Source: Candidatus Peregrinibacteria bacterium
GTDB lineage: Bacteria; Patescibacteriota; Gracilibacteria; UBA1369; JACRIC01
Direction: 5' to 3'
Assembly: GCA_016188705.1 (NCBI GenBank)
Contig: JACPHH010000003.1
Coordinates: 1-45,586 of the forward strand
Length of the DNA stretch: 45,586 nt
How positions within the stretch are numbered: position 1 is the stretch's first letter; each line of letters starts with the position of its first letter. Of the stretch, positions 5,701 through 29,791 are shown one piece after another. Under the pieces are notes generated by a model. The model saw only the letters and a program-made list of their open reading frames with translations. It had not been told where the DNA came from and made no database searches. Both the position numbers and the translations under genes were made by a program.

Positions 5701-7998
5701 AGCGGAACTTGTGAGCGTAAGTGTTCGACTTTGACTGGTCGCTCCATTACTTGGTGAAGAAATGCTCGGGGTAGCTGGTACTGTATTGGCCGCAACGGTA
5801 AAACTGATTCCCGTTGACCACGACGATGTTGCTACGGCATTGGTATGTTGTACTCTTGCGTAGTATGTTGTGTTTGGAGTCAAATATGTTTTTGTTGCGA
5901 GAGCATTTTGAAAAGTGAAATTTGTTGAATTGGCAACAATGGATGTGAGATTGGTAGTATCTGTTGATTTGGTTGCGACGATCGTATTAAAGCCACTATC
6001 GGTTGCTATCTGCCAATTGGACGAAGTATGTCCCGGCGCTCCGGAAAAAGCGGAACTTTCAAGAGTCGGTGTTCGTGAAACACCTGTTGCTCCATTTGCT
6101 GGAGATGCAATAGTTGGAGTGGACGGCGTTGCCGTGTATGTTACGGCCAGATTATTGATTTCCACGGCCTGATTTCCATTGGAAACGAGAAATGCTTTAT
6201 AATAGAAATTTCCGGTTCCTATGACGGTGTCAAAGTCGTCGAGCCAGAAATTTACTGAAGCCGCAGTATTGTTATCCGTGCTATCGGTGGTTACCGCTGT
6301 CCAGCTGGTTCCATTGTGGTAGTACCAGCTTGTGCCGTTATTGGAAATTTGATAATAGGTAGATCCGGCATTGCTTCCGCCGAGTGTTTCCGTGAAACCA
6401 TAGAGATTCGTATAGGTCGGATGTGTGCCGGCAGAAGCTGGTAGAATTTTTATTCCATCATAACTTGAATTCGCTTGTTCGCTTCCCATAGACGAAGATG
6501 GATCGCTTGAAGCGTATTTTCGTATAAAGAGCCAGTCGTATTTTGTCGATGCTCCTCCTGATATTGCTGTCACCCAATCCCATGTGACCGCAGACCAATC
6601 GTTTTGAGTCGAAGAATATGAACCTATTGATACCCGTGCATCAGAAGAACCATTGACTGCTAAATTTGTAGAGCTCCCTTTTGTAATTTTTGTTTTGTAC
6701 CATGTATTCACGGAAAATGATCCGAGATTGCTTGGACAATACACGTCTGTACTTGGAAAATTTCCATTTACGCCCAAAAATGCTCCCATGGCATCGCCAG
6801 TATATCCGCAATCTTCACCATCGGTCAGTCCGAATCTATTACTTCCATCACTATTCCAGATTTCACTCGTATGAGAAGCATCGTTTGCGAGTTTTTGAAA
6901 ACGTGTTTCGATTACACCTGTGAAACTCGGAGCAAAATCATAATTAAGTTTTAACATTTTCCAACCTCCTGCTGAAGCAACCGTCAATACTCCGCCACTG
7001 ACCGTTATTGTTGGCGCATCAAAAATATAACCATCCGTATCCCAATTGGCATCAAGACTTGCTCCTGTAAAATCGTCAAAAAATGTAAAAACATTGCTTC
7101 CGTTGCTGTTGGATGAGAGCGAGGCATTCCCATAATACATATAAATCGTCGCGGTCGAGGAAGCCGTGATGGATGGCGCTTCCACCCATACCATCGCTGA
7201 TGTTGAATCTGTTTTACCTTCGAGCCAATAGTCGAGCTGTGTCGTGCCGTCTGAACTTGTGAATCGCAGATCGTCAAAATCCGCTTGCATGTCGGAGTCG
7301 TAGGTAATATTGAGAAGTACTGGAAAATTTGTCAGCGTGGATCCGGAGTTTTCAGTTACTGTGATTTTTTTTCGTCTTGTGGTGCTTTCTACTCCATTTA
7401 TGAAAGCATAATCGCCGCTAGAAGAAATAAGTTTTGTTAGACTGTCGCTTGAAGCGTTTACTGAAATTTTTGCATTATCGTAGGTGTAATTGGTCGTTGC
7501 TTCCCCGAATGTCCAGTTTTGAGTTCCAACGGTTTCGCTGATGCTGGTTTTGAATCCGACCAATACTGACCAATTCGAATCGCCGGATGCATTGGCGTGC
7601 CGGACACGTGCCCAATATCGCGTTCCAGTCGCTAGTGCGGTTTGTCCTGATAATGCGTTTGAAAAAATTCCATTGGTTGTATTGACCGTGATGGAAGTGA
7701 GATTGCTGGAATCGTCATATTTGGACCAGACGAGATTTCCTGCGATCGCGGTTGAACTTGTATAGATTTCCCAGTCCGAAACCGTATGCGGCGCATCGCC
7801 TGAAAAATTCGCAGAGGTAAGCGTGAGGTTTATGCCTTGACCTGTCGCTAAACTGGTTGGAGATGAGATGGTTGGTTGGTTGGGTATCGCTGCCTGAACA
7901 ATAAGAATATGAGTCAGTAGGAGTAAACTGCTGGTTATGAAAAAAATAATGAATATTTTTTGTTTTTCGGAAACGAGCCAATTTTGAATTTTGAACAT
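2746..7998 (-). CDS. Giant secreted surface protein: fibronectin-like repeats, DUF2341, C-terminal SLH region
   Basis: A 1750-residue exported protein. It starts with a signal peptide (hydrophobic 15-35, likely cut near VQA-A, residue 36). It continues with a fibronectin-type-III-like unit (about 40-150), a DUF2341 domain (about 204-310) and a probable lectin/LamG-like stretch (about 310-510). From about 620 to 1090 come four similar units of about 110-120 residues, each opening with a motif like PTISSPTNAAT and carrying TTYYARVRHTD. A fifth PTLA-type unit and two further FN3/phosphatase-like units (about 1206-1380, SSTITWNT) follow. Then come a Gly/Ser linker (about 1390-1412), a charged segment and SLH-type repeats (about 1536-1716, YPDGTFRPN and YPDSTFKPD). 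A cell-surface structural or adhesive role is inferred. SLH motifs suggest envelope attachment. Transcription is from the promoter at 8021-8049. Confidence 0.9.
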   Translation of the reverse strand: MFKIQNWLVSEKQKIFIIFFITSSLLLLTHILIVQAAIPNQPTISSPTSLATGQGINLTLTSANFSGDAPHTVSDWEIYTSSTAIAGNLVWSKYDDSSNLTSITVNTTNGIFSNALSGQTALATGTRYWARVRHANASGDSNWSVLVGFKTSISETVGTQNWTFGEATTNYTYDNAKISVNASSDSLTKLISSSGDYAFINGVESTTRRKKITVTENSGSTLTNFPVLLNITYDSDMQADFDDLRFTSSDGTTQLDYWLEGKTDSTSAMVWVEAPSITASSTATIYMYYGNASLSSNSNGSNVFTFFDDFTGASLDANWDTDGYIFDAPTITVSGGVLTVASAGGWKMLKLNYDFAPSFTGVIETRFQKLANDASHTSEIWNSDGSNRFGLTDGEDCGYTGDAMGAFLGVNGNFPSTDVYCPSNLGSFSVNTWYKTKITKGSSTNLAVNGSSDARVSIGSYSSTQNDWSAVTWDWVTAISGGASTKYDWLFIRKYASSDPSSSMGSEQANSSYDGIKILPASAGTHPTYTNLYGFTETLGGSNAGSTYYQISNNGTSWYYHNGTSWTAVTTDSTDNNTAASVNFWLDDFDTVIGTGNFYYKAFLVSNGNQAVEINNLAVTYTATPSTPTIASPANGATGVSRTPTLESSAFSGAPGHTSSNWQIATDSGFNTIVATKSTDTTNLTSIVANSTNFTFQNALATKTYLTPNTTYYARVQHTNAVATSSWSTGISFTVAANTVPATPSISSPSNGATSQSRTLTLTSSAFSDSESDTHTSSTWEIATDSGFTSIVAIKSSDTSNKTSITVNSTNFTFQGTLSGKTELLPSTTYYTRASYTDSENGTSSTSSVISFTTEVNATPSKPTISSPTNAATNQARNQLVSSAAFSDADPDDTHQSSDWEVYDDIDLTRLVAFVYDSTSKKTSVALTSSNLTFQNALSGKELLDPEVTYYVRMRHTDSENQDSNWSNAIAFTTGTNVAPNKPSIISPSSGAIETSTTPTLQSSAFSDTDDTQHVSSSWEIYDSSLLGSSNLVWQKLNDSANKTSIIVNDSKGTFSNAISGRTKLLPGTTYYARMLQMDAASADSDWANMVSFTTVTPPANPTLASISHPSESDYFRNATPSFTTSAGTPTPNHYHYLINQNATPTKLEVESGTSDEDGSFTVPSGTINANGTWYVHMIAHDVNHNPSVTFDTYTIKYNSSAPTISNITASNITANSSTITWNTLNATTTSQVDYGTSSGNYTLSGTQSAETTSHQVSLTSLSGSTAYYYIVTSVDSYGQTNVSSEKTFTTLGLTTISGVTATNISTISAVITWTTNHAATSKVNYGTSTAYGSDIQSTDLVTSHSITITGLTAGLTYYYEIISVGNSTATDAYHTFATISNSTTTVTTNQTSSGGGSGSGGSSSSSSSSMSSKSDTSAKNNETKINKTETNPISTKFEVLKPTEKNEEKQREILNKIAEERKMENTKPNGPELRKFVFETIENDDVSKKNKYEIIDEKLHKILERKDESPIIRNEENAVDIFENSFSGTVNIDEKAQIQDNDWIEPYIAFMEKTGFISATEKKQIDADKIHAPTTRCAVSKTVVEYFFLQTDENEPSTFTDMDQKNPCTKYVMALKKTGAIHGYPDGTFRPNASINRAEALKIITLAVTKYFKTEFKPQDFALFSNPFLDVKDDQWFTNYIKFGFHSETIIGYPDSTFKPDKEITSAETLKILVRTLTFFEKISTEAKQAIDKDLTKTPSFIEKFFTWQ

Positions 7999-23197: not shown

Positions 23198-23240
23198 CTT
23201 GTCCTTGAAATAAGTTCTAACTTCTAAAATTTTTACAGAT

Positions 23241-23342
23241 GGAAGAGATGTATTTTGTTCAGTTCAAGGAACGACGACGAGAGTGTACCCAAAGGTACAT
23301 CGAGAAGGAGTGACGCGGAAATGGACAAAATACATCTCTTCC
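23241..23342. repeat. 102-bp inverted-repeat element (hairpin 4)
   Basis: Perfect 18-bp arms, GGAAGAGATGTATTTTGT (23241-23258) and its complement (23325-23342), enclose a core starting TTCAAGGAACGACGACGA. The apex is a small hairpin GTACC-CAAA-GGTAC (23285-23298). Confidence 0.8.
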
Positions 23343-23347
23343 CTTTG

Positions 23348-23450
23348 GGTTGGACGGAAAGATGTCCGTCTTCTTTGTTGCTCGTCGCTTATGGAGCACT
23401 GCTCCACCGCGCTCCTCGCGCCTTGAATCCAGACATCTTTCCGTCCAACC
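23348..23450. repeat. 103-bp inverted-repeat element (hairpin 5)
   Basis: Perfect 19-bp arms, GGTTGGACGGAAAGATGTC (23348-23366) and its complement (23432-23450), enclose an apex GGAGC-ACT-GCTCC (23393-23405). Read in reverse complement its core also begins TTCAAGG and includes AGCGACGAGC, like its neighbour and the palindrome at 17.4 kb. Confidence 0.8.
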
Positions 23451-23493
23451 ATCGCAAAAATTTTATATGAACACTGCTTAGAGCGATTTTGGT

Positions 23494-23522
23494 TTGACTT
23501 TTGCGATTCACTCAATTATCAT
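23494..23522 (+). promoter_or_regulatory. Promoter of the trp operon
   Basis: TTGACT (23494-23499), a 17-bp spacer and TATCAT (23517-23522) place the transcription start near 23529, about 20 nt before the trpR ATG. The 5' leader has no Shine-Dalgarno site. Confidence 0.65.
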
Positions 23523-23529
23523 ATTGATA

Positions 23530-23548
23530 TACTAGTACAAAAGTATAC
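23530..23548 (+). promoter_or_regulatory. Candidate TrpR operator
   Basis: TACTAGTA is a perfect palindrome at 23530-23537, followed by CAAAAGTATAC. It overlaps the predicted transcription start. The CTAG core is the same as in the E. coli trp operator half-sites, though only one CTAG is present. Autoregulation of trpR is inferred. Confidence 0.4.
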
Positions 23549-23812
23549 ATGGCTAATCACTTTGTTCATGAACTCGTTGAAACCATTCTTTCCTTGAAAA
23601 AGAAAGATATTGCTTTGGCTTTTTTACAAAATATTCTCACTCCTTCCGAGCTCGATGAAATAGCTACCAGATTACAAATTGTAAGGCTACTTAAAAAAGG
23701 CGTTCCGCAAAGAGAAGTGGCTAAAAAATTGGGGGTGAGCATTGGGACAGTAAGTCGTGGAGCAAGAGAGTTGAAATATGGGGCGCCAGGATTTAAACAG
23801 GTATTAAAATGA
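23549..23812 (+). CDS. trpR: TrpR-family trp operon repressor
   Basis: An 87-residue all-helical DNA-binding protein of the TrpR/YerC superfamily. Helices B-C carry ILTPSELDEIATRLQIVRLL (the Trp-binding region, with the conserved Arg), followed by the helix-turn-helix QREVAKKLGVSIGTVSRGA (about 52-70). TrpR binds tryptophan and blocks transcription. Its start and central part match E. coli and chlamydial TrpR better than YerC, and its position at the head of the trp operon supports the name. It is the first gene of the transcript. Its stop (TGA, 23810-23812) overlaps the start of the leader peptide, so the two are translationally linked. Confidence 0.87.
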   Translation: MANHFVHELVETILSLKKKDIALAFLQNILTPSELDEIATRLQIVRLLKKGVPQREVAKKLGVSIGTVSRGARELKYGAPGFKQVLK

Positions 23813-23871
23813 TGACAAGAAATAATAAAAATTGGTGGTGGATTAATACTTCAGAGCAATTGAGGCGTTAA
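23809..23871 (+). CDS. trpL: trp leader peptide with three consecutive Trp codons
   Basis: A 20-residue ORF (two ATGs in tandem at 23809 and 23812) reading MMTRNNKNWWWINTSEQLRR. Codons TGG-TGG-TGG are at 23833-23841. It ends 25 bp before the attenuator stem. Stalling of the ribosome at the Trp codons would leave 23860-23869 free to pair with the 5' arm of the terminator. Finishing the peptide would cover that segment and allow termination. This is the classical leader-peptide attenuation layout. Confidence 0.93.
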   Translation: MMTRNNKNWWWINTSEQLRR

Positions 23872-23923
23872 TTCAAATATGAATTTTAAACGTTAAACAC
23901 CTCGGTTGCTGAGGTGTTTTTTT
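23860..23923 (+). terminator. trp attenuator (antiterminator / terminator pair)
   Basis: The terminator is ACACCTC (23897-23903) paired with GAGGTGT (23911-23917), loop GGTTGCT, then a T run to 23923. The alternative partner of the 5' arm is GAGG-GTT at 23862-23869, inside the last leader-peptide codons, opposite AACACCTC with one mismatch. The two structures exclude each other. A possible TTG start for trpE at 23925 follows the T run directly and is unlikely to be used. Confidence 0.88.
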
Positions 23924-23969
23924 ATTGAGAAAATTATATGTATCAGGATTTTTTTTATTCAATTGTATT

Positions 23970-25502
23970 ATGATCAATTATCAAACTATCAATTCAGACT
24001 TATTAGAAGGTTCATGCGGATTTTCATATCAAGAGCCTCATAAAGTATTTACACGTTTGTACGGGACATATAGGTATAAATTTTTATTTGAATCAAAGGA
24101 TATTTCTTCTATTTATGGCAGATTAAGTTTAATCGGCATCGATCCTGTCTTAAGAGTTACAGGGAAAAAAGATACATTTTGCATAAAAGTACTCAATGAG
24201 CGTGGACAACTCTACTTAAAGCAATTCAATGATAAAGATTTTAAAATTTGCGACAGGTTCAAAATCTCAGAAAAAAGTGTTTCTGGAACGGTTTATAACC
24301 ATACAGCCCTTTTTGAGGAAACAGAAAGATCAAAAAGAAAAAACATCGCCCAGATCATGAGAATTATTTTGAAAAAGTTTGAAACCAAGCAGAAATCATT
24401 CCTCGGCCTTTATGGAGCCTTGAGTTACGATTTTATAAGATTATTTGAAGACATAGGACAAAGTACTCCTGAAAACGACGTGGATGATTTTACGTTATTC
24501 CTGTATGACACTTTTATATTTTTCGATCACCTGAAACAGACAAATAAAATCATTGCTTATAGAAAAAATACGCAAGAAGCGGAAAAGGATATCAATCTTA
24601 TTCAAGCAAAAATGAACCGCGAGGGAACAAGTAATATTTCTTACCGTATAAGCGACTCATGTTTTGAATTAAATCAAAAGCAATACCAAAATTTAGTGAA
24701 ATTGGCTAAAAAATATGCTGCTGAAGGAGAACTTTTTGAGGTTGTTTTTTCAAACGTTTTAAAGGCTTGTTTCAATGGCGATCCTTTTGCGTTGTATTTA
24801 AAATATCGTGATTCCAATCCTTCTCCTTATCTTTTCTATTTTGATTTTGGAAAAGAACAGCTCGTGGGTGCTTCTCCAGAAATGATGGTGAGATGTGAAA
24901 ATAAAATTGTGAGTTTACGGCCAATTTCAGGGACAGTTCAAAGAGGAAAAGACCCGATAGAAGATCACGAAAACATGCTTTCTTTATTATCTGATCCAAA
25001 AGAAAGGGCGGAATTAGATATGCTTATCGATCTTGGTAGAAATGATTTGAGCCGAGTTTGTGAGCCAGAAATACAAATCACCGATTACCGCTTCGTCGAA
25101 AAATATTCACGCGTAATGCACACAGTCGCCCATTTGTCAGGAAAATTAAGAAAAAGTTACACCGCGCTCGATGCTCTGATTGCTTGTTTGAACGCGGGAA
25201 CTTTGACCGGCGCTCCCAAAGTCGCAGCCATGAAAACAATTGAGAAACATGAAAAAGAACGCAGAGGTTACTATGGCGGAACCATCGGATATTTCACCTT
25301 TTCCGGCGATATGGATACCGGAATTATTATACGAACTGCTCATATTCGAGGACGTCAATTACGATTTCAAGTTGGGGCCACGCTGCTTTACGATTCAGTG
25401 CCTGAAAAAGAGTATACAGAAACGCTTAACAAAGCATCGGCGTTTTTAAATTGCAGTAGTAACTACGTTTTTCAGAAGTTCTCTAATAAATTCAACATAT
25501 GA
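23970..25502 (+). CDS. trpE: Anthranilate synthase component I
   Basis: Converts chorismate to anthranilate with the glutaminase TrpG; first committed step of tryptophan synthesis. Start set at the ATG at 23970 (510 residues); a TTG at 23925 abuts the attenuator. The N-terminal LFES (in FLFESKDIS) corresponds to the Trp feedback site LLES of E. coli TrpE, and GRLSLIGIDP follows. The C-terminal chorismate-binding core has GASPEMMVR, RPISGTVQRG, DLGRNDLSRVC, VMHTVAHLSG and LTGAPKVAAM. The last ~20 residues (NCSSNYVFQKFSNKFNI) are encoded by a dispersed repeat. ATGA overlap with trpG. Confidence 0.96.
   Translation: MINYQTINSDLLEGSCGFSYQEPHKVFTRLYGTYRYKFLFESKDISSIYGRLSLIGIDPVLRVTGKKDTFCIKVLNERGQLYLKQFNDKDFKICDRFKISEKSVSGTVYNHTALFEETERSKRKNIAQIMRIILKKFETKQKSFLGLYGALSYDFIRLFEDIGQSTPENDVDDFTLFLYDTFIFFDHLKQTNKIIAYRKNTQEAEKDINLIQAKMNREGTSNISYRISDSCFELNQKQYQNLVKLAKKYAAEGELFEVVFSNVLKACFNGDPFALYLKYRDSNPSPYLFYFDFGKEQLVGASPEMMVRCENKIVSLRPISGTVQRGKDPIEDHENMLSLLSDPKERAELDMLIDLGRNDLSRVCEPEIQITDYRFVEKYSRVMHTVAHLSGKLRKSYTALDALIACLNAGTLTGAPKVAAMKTIEKHEKERRGYYGGTIGYFTFSGDMDTGIIIRTAHIRGRQLRFQVGATLLYDSVPEKEYTETLNKASAFLNCSSNYVFQKFSNKFNI
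25448..25485 (-). repeat. Dispersed repeat inside the 3' end of trpE
   Basis: This 38-bp stretch matches the left arm of the argD/argB element (reverse complement of about 32878-32914) at about 32 of 37 positions, including TTGCAGTAGTAA and ACGTTTTTCAG. It encodes the final residues of TrpE. Confidence 0.75.
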
Positions 25503-26065
25503 AGTATAAAAATATTTTTATCATAGACAATTTCGATTCTTTCACTTTCAATCTTGCTGATTATTTTAAACAATTAAAATGCGCGGTACATGTTTATAGA
25601 AACAACATTGACCCTCATGTCATAGAAAAAATTGCTCCCGATCTCGTTGTTATCTCCCCAGGACCGTCCATGCCAAAAAATGCCGGAAATGTAATGAAAA
25701 TTATTGATAAATACCACGCTCAATTTCCTATTTTTGGAGTTTGTTTGGGTCACGAAGCTTTGATCGAGTACTTTGGAGGAACACTCAAATTCGTGGATCC
25801 TGTACACGGAAAATCTTCTAAAATTCACCATGATTCCAAAGGAATTTTTCGAAACGTAGCGCAGGATTTTGATGCGGGAAGATACCACTCCTTAGTTGCG
25901 GATAAAGTACCTGATTGCTTTGAAAAATCAGCGACTTCTTGTGGCTTTGTAATGGCGATTCGTCACAAAAATTTATCAATAAACGGAGTTCAATTTCATC
26001 CGGAATCGATTCTCACCATGAAAGGTGGCAACGGCTTTAAAATTATTAAAAACGTAATTTCATGA
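25499..26065 (+). CDS. trpG: Anthranilate synthase component II (glutamine amidotransferase)
   Basis: Releases ammonia from glutamine for TrpE. The class I amidotransferase triad is complete: C82 in FGVCLGHEAL, and H167 and E169 in QFHPES. The oxyanion region SPGPSMPKNAG is at 53-63. The 188-residue length is normal. It overlaps trpE (ATGA) and the next gene by four bases, so the trio is translationally coupled. Confidence 0.96.
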   Translation: MKYKNIFIIDNFDSFTFNLADYFKQLKCAVHVYRNNIDPHVIEKIAPDLVVISPGPSMPKNAGNVMKIIDKYHAQFPIFGVCLGHEALIEYFGGTLKFVDPVHGKSSKIHHDSKGIFRNVAQDFDAGRYHSLVADKVPDCFEKSATSCGFVMAIRHKNLSINGVQFHPESILTMKGGNGFKIIKNVIS

Positions 26066-28992
26066 AACTCATTACCTTTTTCAAAAAAAGTATTGCAGGA
26101 GAGCTTTCAGCGGAAAAACAGATAAAGTTTTTAAATGCTGACCTAAACATCACGCCAAAAGAATTGGCGGCCACGGTACAATTTTTGCAAAGTCAGATTC
26201 CTAAAAAACCGCGCCTTGAAAATGCCATGGATGTCTGCGGAACAGGAGGTTCAGGACTTTTAAGAATCAATACTTCAACCATTGCGGCATTTCTACTTTC
26301 CTCGCTTGGTGTTGGAGTTGCCAAGCACGGAAACAAAGCGGCAAGCGGCAGATTTGGAAGTTTTGATCTTCTTGAATCGCTAGGCATTGAATTTACAGAT
26401 AATGTCATTGAAATTGAAGAAAAATACAAAAAGGAAAATATAGCGTTTCTCTTTGCTCCGTTTTTTCATCCAGTCATGAAACATTTTGCGGAAACGCGCA
26501 AAAAAATAGGCAAACCAACTTTTTTTAATCTTCTTGGTCCTCTTTTAAATCCCGCTTTTCCGAAAAAACAAATAATAGGCACGGCTTTTAGAGATAAAAT
26601 GCTCTTGATCGCCGAAACGTGCCGATTGCTCGGTAAAGAAAAAGTTTATGTGGTGTGTGGTGAAGACGGTTTGGATGAAGTAACTTTAACAGGACGAACA
26701 TTTGTCACGGAATTTTCAGATGGCACGATGAGATCTTATACGATATCGCCAAAGGATTTTGGGGTCTCAAAAGCGACTTTTTCCGAAATACAAGGCGGGA
26801 ATGCTGAGTTTAACACTGAAATTGCCCGAAAAATTCTTGCAGGGACTTGTAAAACACGTCATCAAGATCTGGTTTTAATGAATGTCGCCCTTGCGTTAAA
26901 GTTAGCGGATAAAGTTAAAACTCTCAAAGAAGGCTATAAAATGGCAACGCGCGCCATAAATATCCCAAGTATTCTTCTAAAAATAGTTGAACAAAAAAGA
27001 CTGGACGTCGAAAGGAGAAAGCGTAAAAATCCGATTAAAAATGTACATCCGTCAACTCGAAATTTTACTGCCGCTATTCAGGGCAATGATCTTGCTCTTA
27101 TTGCCGAAATAAAAAAAGCATCACCAAGCGAAGGAATAATCAATAAAAAGCGATTCTCTCCAGCTCTGATAGCAAAAAAATATGAAAGATTCGGCGCGAA
27201 TGCCATTTCCGTACTGTGCGACAAAAAGTTTTTTCACGGAGACATAAAACATCTTAAAAATGTTGCTGAAAATACATCGAAAATTCCTCTTCTGTGTAAG
27301 GATTTTATCATTGATGAATACCAAATGTATGAAGCAAGGAAGAATGGCGCCGACGCGATTTTGTTGATTGCTTCAATATTAACCGAGGAGCAAATACGCC
27401 ATTTTTTAGAAGTAGCAAAGAGCATGAAAATGGCTGTGATCTGCGAGGTTCACAACTTTGAAGAACTCAAAAAAGTTCTAAAAACTCCTGCAAAAATCAT
27501 CGGAATTAATAATCGAGATTTACACACATTTAAAATAAATATTTCTACCACGTTAGAGCTTGTTAAACATGTTCCTCCGGATAAGTTGATTATTTCTGAA
27601 AGCGGTTTTTCTTCCAAAAAGGATGTGGCTAAAGTTCGCGGAAAAGTTGATGCGATTCTGGTCGGCGCGGCTTTAATGAAAGGCGTAGACATCAGCGAGT
27701 TCACACAAAGAACGGCGATTGATCACGATAAAATAATACATTTTCCGAGAATAAAAGAGGTCATTCGTGTGACTAAAAAATACATGCTGAATAAAACCGG
27801 ACATTTTGGGAAGTTTGGTGGCCGATACATTCCTGAACTTTTAATTCCGATAATGGAAGAACTTGAGACAGCTTTTTATCAGGTCATAAAAGACCAGGGA
27901 TTTAAGAATGAACTAAAAAATCTTTATCAGAACTATTCAGGAAGGCCAACGCCTCTTTATTTTTGTGAAAATCTTACAAATTACCTTGGAGGCGCTCAAA
28001 TCTTTTTAAAAAATGAAGGACTGAATCACACTGGCGCCCATAAAATCAATCATTGTTTGGGGCAAGCTTTACTTGCAAAGCGGCTTGGGAAAAAACGTTT
28101 AATCGCCGAAACCGGAGCCGGACAGCATGGCCTCGCGACAGCAACTGTGGCAGCAAAATTTGGTTTGGATTGCGCTGTTTACATGGGCGCCAAAGATTTT
28201 AAAAGACAACTGCCCAATGTTTTTTTTATGGAGAGGCTTGGGGCTAAAGTCGTTCCCGTAAAACACGGTGGACAAATACTCAGAGACGCAATCAATGCAG
28301 CGTTAAAAGATTTAATGGCAAATCCTAAAGACACTCACTACTTGCTTGGAACTGTTTGCGGGCCACATCCTTATCCCGCTATGAATACTTATTTTCAAAG
28401 CATTGTTGGCCAAGAGGTTAAAAACCAGCTTTTTTCTCAAACCGGCAAAACGCCAGATTATTTAGTGGCATGCGTTGGAGGTGGAAGCAATGCCATGGGG
28501 CTTTTTTACGAATTTTTGAATGACAAAAATGTAAAAATGATTGGAGTGGAAGCCGGAGGAAAAAGAATTTCAGAAGACGATAAAAAGTGTCAGCATGCCG
28601 CAAGATTTCAAACAGGAAAAGTTGGTGTCGCGGAAGGATTCAAGTCATATTTTTTGCAAAATCAAGATGGGCAAATTAAAGAAACACATAGTATTTCCGC
28701 TGGACTTGATTATTCCGGTGTCGGCCCTCAAATCGCGTATTTAAAAGATATTGGACGGATTCAAATGAGTTATTCTTTTGATCGAGATGTTTTGCGGGCT
28801 TATGAATTACTTGCACGGCAGGAAGGAATTTTTGCGGCGCTCGAATCTTGTCATGCCCTTGCCGAGGTAATTAAATTGGCGCCAAAATTAAAGAAAGATA
28901 AAATTATTATTTTTAACTGTTCGGGTCGTGGAGATAAGGATCTTTTCATAGTCAGCAAAAAATTTAACTTTCAGCTACCGGAGCCGAAGTAA
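26062..28992 (+). CDS. trpDCB: TrpD-TrpC-TrpB triple fusion (anthranilate phosphoribosyltransferase, indole-glycerol-phosphate synthase, tryptophan synthase beta)
   Basis: One uninterrupted 976-codon frame. Residues 1-300 are TrpD, with the phosphoribosyl-pyrophosphate loop CGTGGSG (59-65) and KHGNKAASGRFGS (88-100). Residues 303-548 are TrpC, with IAEIKKASPSEG (347-358), the catalytic-type Lys in LCKDF (411-415), E462, NNRDL (483-487) and SESGF (512-516). A linker follows at about 550-572. Residues 575-976 are TrpB, with the PLP lysine K661 in HTGAHKIN, ETGAGQHG (683-690) and the phosphate-binding GGGSNA (806-811). All three domains look intact. The normal trpF between trpC and trpB is absent. 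The nearest internal start for a separate TrpB is an in-frame ATG at residue 575. Substrate hand-over between the domains is inference. Confidence 0.96.
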   Translation: MKLITFFKKSIAGELSAEKQIKFLNADLNITPKELAATVQFLQSQIPKKPRLENAMDVCGTGGSGLLRINTSTIAAFLLSSLGVGVAKHGNKAASGRFGSFDLLESLGIEFTDNVIEIEEKYKKENIAFLFAPFFHPVMKHFAETRKKIGKPTFFNLLGPLLNPAFPKKQIIGTAFRDKMLLIAETCRLLGKEKVYVVCGEDGLDEVTLTGRTFVTEFSDGTMRSYTISPKDFGVSKATFSEIQGGNAEFNTEIARKILAGTCKTRHQDLVLMNVALALKLADKVKTLKEGYKMATRAINIPSILLKIVEQKRLDVERRKRKNPIKNVHPSTRNFTAAIQGNDLALIAEIKKASPSEGIINKKRFSPALIAKKYERFGANAISVLCDKKFFHGDIKHLKNVAENTSKIPLLCKDFIIDEYQMYEARKNGADAILLIASILTEEQIRHFLEVAKSMKMAVICEVHNFEELKKVLKTPAKIIGINNRDLHTFKINISTTLELVKHVPPDKLIISESGFSSKKDVAKVRGKVDAILVGAALMKGVDISEFTQRTAIDHDKIIHFPRIKEVIRVTKKYMLNKTGHFGKFGGRYIPELLIPIMEELETAFYQVIKDQGFKNELKNLYQNYSGRPTPLYFCENLTNYLGGAQIFLKNEGLNHTGAHKINHCLGQALLAKRLGKKRLIAETGAGQHGLATATVAAKFGLDCAVYMGAKDFKRQLPNVFFMERLGAKVVPVKHGGQILRDAINAALKDLMANPKDTHYLLGTVCGPHPYPAMNTYFQSIVGQEVKNQLFSQTGKTPDYLVACVGGGSNAMGLFYEFLNDKNVKMIGVEAGGKRISEDDKKCQHAARFQTGKVGVAEGFKSYFLQNQDGQIKETHSISAGLDYSGVGPQIAYLKDIGRIQMSYSFDRDVLRAYELLARQEGIFAALESCHALAEVIKLAPKLKKDKIIIFNCSGRGDKDLFIVSKKFNFQLPEPK

Positions 28993-29017: not shown

Positions 29018-29791
29018 ATGAAAAATAATTTAATGACACATGTCGTCGCGGGTTATCCCAGTATGAAAAATTGTGAGGAAATTGTTATGGCAATGGCTAA
29101 AATGGGAGTCGCTTTTATTGAAATTCAAATACCTTTTTCTGATCCGATTGCTGACGGGCCAACAATTATGCATGCAAACGAACAAGCTCTTTTAAACGGG
29201 GTAACAACAGAGGACTGCTTCAAGCTCATTAAAAGACTAAAAAAGGAGATCGATACCCCTATTCTTATAATGACATATTTCAACATTCCTTTTCGTTATG
29301 GATTAGAAAAGTTTTGTATGAAAGCTCAAGAATGTCAGGTTTATGGCTTAATTATTCCGGACATCCCGATTGATGAAGAAAAATATGAAAATTATCTTGG
29401 CAATTGCAAAAAATATGGATTGCATGCGATACAGATCATTTCTCTTATAACGCCAGAAAAAAGATTAAAAAGAATTTCTAAGGTTGCAAGTGGTTTTGTG
29501 TATTGCGTATCAACATTTGGAACAACTGGAGAACGGGAGCAACTGAATCCTGATCTAGGTTCTTACATTAAAAAGGTTAAAAAATATATCAAAACGCCTT
29601 TAGCTTTGGGGTTTGGCATTTCCAGCAAAGATCAAGTATCAATGGCTCTCAAATATGCAGATATTGCAGTCGTTGGGAGTAAAATCATCAACATTCTAAA
29701 CTCATCCAAAAAAGATACAATAAACGAGCTAAAAATTTTCTTAAAGAATTTGATATTTTGTTGCACTTCATTTTTGATTATACTCGTTTAA
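29018..29791 (+). CDS. trpA: Tryptophan synthase alpha subunit
   Basis: Cleaves indole-3-glycerol phosphate and passes indole to TrpB. Catalytic acids E35 and D46 sit in FIEIQIPFSDPIADGP, with the same 11-residue spacing as E49/D60 of E. coli. The phosphate-binding FGTTGER and LGFGISS are also present. At 257 residues it is about 10-14 short at the N-terminus. The C-terminus ends in an unusual hydrophobic FCCTSFLIILV, whose last codons overlap the convergent argH by 14 bp. The gene follows the fusion after 25 bp. Its partner TrpB is the third domain of that fusion. Confidence 0.95.
   Translation: MKNNLMTHVVAGYPSMKNCEEIVMAMAKMGVAFIEIQIPFSDPIADGPTIMHANEQALLNGVTTEDCFKLIKRLKKEIDTPILIMTYFNIPFRYGLEKFCMKAQECQVYGLIIPDIPIDEEKYENYLGNCKKYGLHAIQIISLITPEKRLKRISKVASGFVYCVSTFGTTGEREQLNPDLGSYIKKVKKYIKTPLALGFGISSKDQVSMALKYADIAVVGSKIINILNSSKKDTINELKIFLKNLIFCCTSFLIILV

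Follow-up and report, generated by a model that had tools for sequence, protein, structure and literature searches.

Trp repressor gene and a predicted ribosome-mediated attenuator in series at the head of a trp operon in Peregrinibacteria

Control of a trp operon by both repression and attenuation is a textbook example of layered regulation, in which the repressor gene is located elsewhere. The arrangements closest to the one described here come from Chlamydia and its allies. In Chlamydia, trpR comes first and a putative trpL precedes trpB or trpEb, encoding a 40-residue peptide with a WW pair in C. felis and one of 59 residues in C. trachomatis (PMC3937554). The Chlamydia trpL has been found to be a poor attenuator, attenuation being assigned to YtgR (PMC7755916). 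In Simkania negevensis, trpR lies 18 nt before trpAa and there is no leader (PMC3937554). Within the open-access literature, whose scope does not take in the main reviews, we found no account of trp attenuation for Peregrinibacteria or for any other member of the Candidate Phyla Radiation. The initial annotation of the DNA considered here held that the two devices are rarely found on one transcript, and this fits the literature, given that the Chlamydia leader is putative and disputed (PMC3937554, PMC7755916) and the Simkania operon leaderless (PMC3937554).

The window, a stretch of 45,586 nt from an uncultured Candidatus Peregrinibacteria genome of 1.37 Mb (95% complete), has on its plus strand a predicted promoter and TrpR-type operator, then trpR, a leader and competing antiterminator and terminator hairpins (23494-23970), followed by the genes trpE-G-(D-C-B fusion)-A. 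Its nearest TrpE relatives place the genome in the order of Candidatus Peregrinibacteria/Peribacteria, Candidate Phyla Radiation. These are trpE, for anthranilate synthase component I (23970-25502; PF00425, E 5.6e-75, and PF04715), trpG (25499-26065; PF00117, with TIGR00566 scoring above its cut-off), a trpD-trpC-trpB triple fusion of 976 residues in which TIGR01245, IGPS PF00218 and TIGR00263 domains lie within one ORF (26062-28992), and trpA (29018-29791; TIGR00262, PF00290). In the nearest relatives, L061 and L062, the gap between trpD and trpC is only 3-6 nt and these genes may also be joined. A mechanical ORF list starts trpE at TTG 23925; the ATG at 23970 is the best supported start because near relatives begin with similar M-I-N-Y residues. 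A gene for trpF (PRAI, PF00697) was not found in the genome, where the other pathway genes are present. Two HisA/HisF-type proteins are encoded; a PriA-like HisA may substitute for TrpF, or the gene may lie in the absent 5% of the genome.

The first gene, trpR (23549-23812, plus strand), encodes an 87-residue Trp repressor homologue that itself has no Trp residue. Its membership of the superfamily is clear (PF01371, E 3.7e-26; 91.4 bits, threshold 27) and it is the sole PF01371 gene of the genome, with no paralogous TrpR found there. Against the NCBIfam TrpR equivalog model, TIGR01321, it scores 64.9 bits, 2.4 bits below the cut-off of 67.25, and the protein is therefore called TrpR-like. The score of 54.1 bits against the YerC/YecD model TIGR02531, in contrast, lies above the cut-off of 42.2, and the best match in the PDB is a TrpR-like protein from Eubacterium eligens. 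Both facts would suit a homologue of YerC/YecD type that does not sense Trp, leaving a functional attenuator as the single Trp sensor of the operon. We nevertheless consider this improbable. The TrpR model outscores the YerC/YecD model by 11 bits, the QRE and RG motifs (Arg84, Gly85) are kept where YerC-like structures read SRV, and an operator like E. coli trpO is found on the operon's own promoter throughout. From E. coli TrpR, we take residues T44, R54, R84, G85 and S88 to form the Trp pocket; the first four are retained and S88 is replaced by Glu. The matched TrpR-like structures carry Val at position 85.

The operator was located with a matrix built from the corresponding sites of relatives, the window being left out. 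The best site in all 45.6 kb is at 23529, with 15.2 bits, E. coli trpO scoring 12.9 bits with the same matrix. This site, ATACTAGTACAAAAGTAT (23529-23546, plus strand), ends 2 nt 5' of the trpR ATG and is overlapped by a second operator-like site at 23521-23538. Its counterpart in nearly all trpR-trpE loci is an 18-bp palindrome 5' of trpR, of consensus GTACTATTACAATAGWAC, and the same consensus precedes trpL in L080, whose trpR is the last gene of the operon. A consensus scan places a predicted sigma-70 promoter at 23494-23522 (plus strand; -35 TTGACT, 17-nt spacer, -10 TATCAT), a match that taken alone is at chance level; nearly all relatives have TTGAC 5' of an A+T-rich -10 and the operator. 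The locus thus has what is expected of a TrpR target, a palindromic CTAG-type operator at the regulated promoter, and since that promoter is trpR's own, TrpR probably represses its own transcription. Further upstream (23225-23481) lies a dispersed element of MITE-like kind that contains two long internal hairpins; this copy lacks its left end, and its right end is 12 nt 5' of the trpR -35 box. About 13 near-full copies of 93-98% identity are present in the genome, in which the terminal inverted repeats GGCAGTGTTCACATAAAATTTT, allowing up to two mismatches, occur 67 times, compared with 0 for the reversed control pattern.

The stop codon of trpR overlaps by 4 nt, as ATGA, the start of a 20-codon leader, trpL (23809-23871, plus strand), encoding MMTRNNKNWWWINTSEQLRR. 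ORF and profile searches together with this overlap bear out the proposal that trpR is the first gene of the operon and runs into the leader. Three tandem Trp codons at 23833-23841 form the presumed stall site, and Trp-rich leaders occur at the same position in relatives. No clear Shine-Dalgarno sequence is seen by eye, so that translation of the leader, which is assumed here, probably needs coupling to trpR. In the minimum free energy fold a protector hairpin pairs segments 1 and 2 (23839-23875; outer stem 23839-23847 with 23867-23875). Segment 2, the antiterminator 5' arm CAATTGAGGCGTT (23857-23869), extends to the leader stop codon and forms a duplex of -14.2 kcal/mol with segment 3, AACACCTCGGTTG (23896-23908), over 13 positions with one mismatch. 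Segment 3 acts either as this antiterminator 3' arm or as the 5' arm plus loop of an intrinsic terminator (23895-23923; -13.7 kcal/mol) with an 11-bp stem and 3-nt loop (23895-23919) and a run of seven T (23917-23923). Leader, antiterminator and terminator all therefore lie between trpR and trpE, where an attenuator had been proposed. The RNA of the leader region folds with a z-score of -4.6, none of 200 shuffles being equally stable. No other short WW ORF on either strand of the window has a terminator after it. Sixty dinucleotide-shuffled windows yielded 133 short WW ORFs, none with a terminator score of 17 or more, compared with 25.8 in the window, and a WW leader arising by chance was thereby ruled out.

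The behaviour of the switch was assessed by folding the RNA left free by a ribosome at successive positions, cut before the terminator 3' arm. Stalling at each of the three Trp codons gives a probability of 0.76 that segment 3 is sequestered, and a ribosome at the stop codon gives 0.06. Varying the assumed footprint between 9 and 17 nt changes these values little; stalling at codons from S15 onward gives no antitermination. The positive control, E. coli trpL, in a sequence verified against E. coli genomes, gave 0.62 when stalled and 0.00 at the stop. With full-length RNA the terminator probability is 0.00 stalled, 0.95 at the stop and 0.94 untranslated, the last because the 1:2 hairpin protects. 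Such thermodynamic folding leaves kinetics out of account. Tandem Trp codons in a leader ORF, a terminator before the first biosynthetic gene and a computed antiterminator that switches with ribosome position are among the features expected of a ribosome-mediated trp attenuator. The locus does not match the Rfam Trp leader model, at gathering threshold or up to E 10, and is not filed in that RNA family.

The conservation of this arrangement was assessed by a TrpE search covering the order (89 genomes), the class (353 genomes) and a sample of the phylum (379 genomes), plus named genomes, which yielded 17 distinct attenuators. A separate leader follows trpR at 11 loci, namely the window and 10 further Peregrinibacteria-type lineages. 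The latter encode MKQSMSAIQWWWTISQSQQGC (L062), MNWWWEDHMIRRF (L063), MIKNLRKNWWNNLIALL (L064), MGKRINQNNVWWWTRLYMQTRR (L035), MSSISKKTWSWHWFSPKRH (L066), MNTYIVKNWWQLSTFRRRKS (L068), MIRTNTTWWNWNQKSRF (L069), MNIASKMWWWNEDLM (L079), MISLLSTFHDSWWTHSF (L074) and MKPLFQKSYWH (L096). The sequences of leader and stems vary among the 11 while the switch logic is alike, and in 8 of them there is a 4-nt overlap between the trpR stop and a leader ATG. The layout of trpR followed by an attenuator extends over many families of the order and one family outside it. The flip between stalled and stop states is clear in 16 of the 17 loci despite differing stems. The exception is L096, where the stop codon comes almost directly after the single Trp; L035, L069 and L080 show no flip in the full-length equilibrium. 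Across loci the combined shuffle p is about 1e-10, to be read with the shared ancestry of the loci, which are not fully independent. A better test is the specificity of the 2:3 pairing. Cognate duplexes average -12.9 kcal/mol over the 17 loci and swapped ones -7.5, and none of 20,000 permutations of partners matched the cognate set. The letters of the stems differ while their job is the same, being CCGGCG/CGCCGG in L063, TCTCGGCA/TGCCGAGA in L048 and of GAGG/CCTC type in the window.

Other relatives show other states. In eight (L067, L070, L071, L073, L075, L076, L078 and L097) trpR abuts trpE with no attenuator. In L080 the operator, leader and attenuator precede trpE and trpR lies 3' of trpA in the same operon; in L102, trpR (6910-7167 in reverse-complement coordinates) has moved to the 3' side of the trp operon, where it overlaps trpA, with operator and trpL still before trpE. 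L072 and L099 have leaders with no trpR upstream. The distant L099, from another class, is the only locus obtained in the phylum-wide sample outside the window's class; its leader, MQNLTNKIWPSFYFTDYSSRRA, has one Trp and is followed by antiterminator and terminator, with no trpR and no evident operator. In L051, L052 and L060, a distant TrpE clade, the trpR-trpE gap contains in place of an attenuator a second operator-like palindrome, for example GTACTGGTGCATCAGTAC, possibly a repressor roadblock or an internal operator. The next TrpE relatives (Entotheonella, Methanophagales, Lambdaproteobacteria and two MAGs labelled Deltaproteobacteria) have neither trpR 5' of trpE nor an evident trp leader. 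The TrpR core is free of Trp in all 14 cases where it is encoded upstream of a leader, and several TrpR not so placed contain Trp. This is suggestive of a link between a Trp-free core and a downstream leader, an association confounded by ancestry.

These comparisons bear on a simpler reading of the window, that the hairpin is merely the terminator of a monocistronic trpR, the WWW ORF an accident and trpE served by a promoter of its own. The terminator is indeed strong and directly 3' of trpR, and the eight relatives without an attenuator show that one is dispensable. Even so, we give this reading very little credence. In the gap between trpR and trpE the consensus scan found no promoter match on the plus strand; exclusive use of a separate promoter there was one of the outcomes that the initial annotation had named as fatal to its proposal. 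Moreover, WW or WWW leaders of diverged sequence occupy the equivalent position in relatives, antiterminator and terminator arm pair in a conserved and cognate-specific way, and the shuffled windows lacked any such leader. As for a T-box (tRNA-binding) or TRAP-like (protein-binding) switch in place of ribosome-mediated attenuation, such devices do control trp operons in other phyla, yet we regard this as wholly implausible here since Rfam gave no match at gathering threshold but a tRNA elsewhere, no T-box or Trp leader match appears in the region up to E 10, and neither device needs tandem Trp codons regularly spaced before an antiterminator arm.

We conclude that this trp operon is, very probably, autoregulated and senses tryptophan twice in succession, first through TrpR and then through the attenuator. 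The original proposal of both devices on a single transcript agrees, at the computational level, with the 11 separate-leader and three fused loci (below), the ribosome-state folding and the operator. From the observed parts, the degree to which they are conserved and the computed energies of the switch, we infer how Trp binding, DNA binding, stalling and termination would proceed in the cell. Judging from homology and the operator, Trp-loaded TrpR would bind its own operon at the start site, lowering all transcription. Every transcript that does start would carry trpR, and ribosomes ending trpR would enter the 20 codons of trpL through the ATGA overlap. With charged tRNA-Trp scarce they would stall at WWW, segment 2 would pair with segment 3, no terminator would form and trpEGDCBA would be transcribed. 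With charged tRNA-Trp plentiful the ribosome would reach the stop at the end of segment 2, segments 3 and 4 would pair and transcription would end near 23923, leaving a short trpR-trpL message. Free Trp would thus set promoter activity and charged tRNA-Trp would set read-through, with the supply of repressor uncoupled from attenuation. It had been suggested that repressor is made even with the biosynthetic genes off. This would hold when attenuation shuts the operon, because the order of parts means that attenuated transcripts carry all of trpR, but probably not when repression does, the operator being on trpR's own promoter.

In three relatives, L061 (Peregrinibacteria GWF2_43_17), L065 (GWA2_33_10) and L048, trpR continues in frame through the Trp codons, which encode the C-terminus of the repressor. 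The proteins end in ILKKLWRLNPSGRLRE, QVIAWWQPSTIWQMWS and ELQKNKNWRNTEKSRQSLA, respectively, each directly before the stop codon. Antiterminator and terminator are retained in all three. The terminator probability, stalled and at the stop, is 0.00 and 0.71 for L061, 0.00 and 0.45 for L065 and 0.00 and 0.93 for L048; the terminator is weak in L048 (-4.9 kcal/mol) and in L065 (-4.3 kcal/mol). There is just one Trp codon in L061 and one in L048, and in L061 an internal TTG may be an alternative start. The tail of L061, W-R-LNPSGRLRE, is similar to the last part of the window leader, W-INTSEQLRR, as would be expected from a fusion of trpR and trpL. In AlphaFold2 models pLDDT is above 90 for most of the TrpR core and below 50 for the six C-terminal residues of L065, so that this tail looks like an add-on to the core. 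The three fused rows are scattered over the TrpE tree, which amounts to three changes, and two of them pair, with moderate support, with a separate-leader row. Given this distribution, repeated fusion of trpR and leader is likely rather than proven. We rather favour the idea that in these relatives the last codons of trpR serve as the Trp stall site with no separate leader. Finishing the repressor would then itself be the sensing of tRNA-Trp, Trp starvation would both block new repressor and open the operon, and the ATGA-coupled trpR-trpL of the window would represent the unfused condition that could have given rise to it, perhaps three times on the tree. If true, amino-acid sensing would here be wired in a new way, with the end of the repressor's own coding sequence acting as the leader peptide.

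More broadly, a single compact transcript appears to hold both Trp sensors in this streamlined lineage of the Candidate Phyla Radiation. Among the relatives there is a natural series of states, with separate leader, fused leader, no attenuator or trpR at the operon end, which opens the evolution and the value of each control layer to testing.

How, then, does the locus compare with known systems? It shares with E. coli trpL-trpE and TrpR the use of two Trp sensors for one operon, a short leader in which Trp codons stand in tandem, four segments (1-4) whose 2:3 and 3:4 hairpins exclude each other, and a related operator. In contrast, the E. coli trpR is unlinked and its trpL has its own start, whereas in the window trpR comes first and the leader overlaps its stop codon. 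The leader stop, at the end of segment 2, is nine codons past the last Trp in the window and three in E. coli. The Chlamydia trpR-(trpL)-trp operons are alike in having trpR first, TrpR acting on the upstream promoter and a putative Trp-rich leader before the biosynthetic genes. The window has this same order, the likeness being one of architecture alone. Unlike the Peregrinibacteria loci, the Chlamydia attenuator is disputed and the C. felis group has a gap of about 230 nt; in Peregrinibacteria the gaps are short, the leader overlaps trpR, the switch and its pairing specificity are clear and the leader may be fused to TrpR. Simkania negevensis also has trpR first in a complete trp operon, with autoregulation inferred (PMC3937554), but its leaderless 18-nt gap sets it apart from the window and resembles instead the eight relatives in which trpR abuts trpE. 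Finally, the WWW of Chlamydia YtgCR is, like the fused TrpR relatives, a cluster of Trp codons in a regulator gene that couples tRNA-Trp charging to termination (PMC7755916). There, however, stalling leads to termination within the gene and to less of an iron-dependent repressor, whereas in the fused TrpR relatives it is predicted to prevent termination, so that trpE is transcribed. An attenuator after trpR therefore has a disputed precedent in Chlamydia and is cleaner and conserved here; what is new is the apparent fusion of leader peptide and repressor in the relatives.
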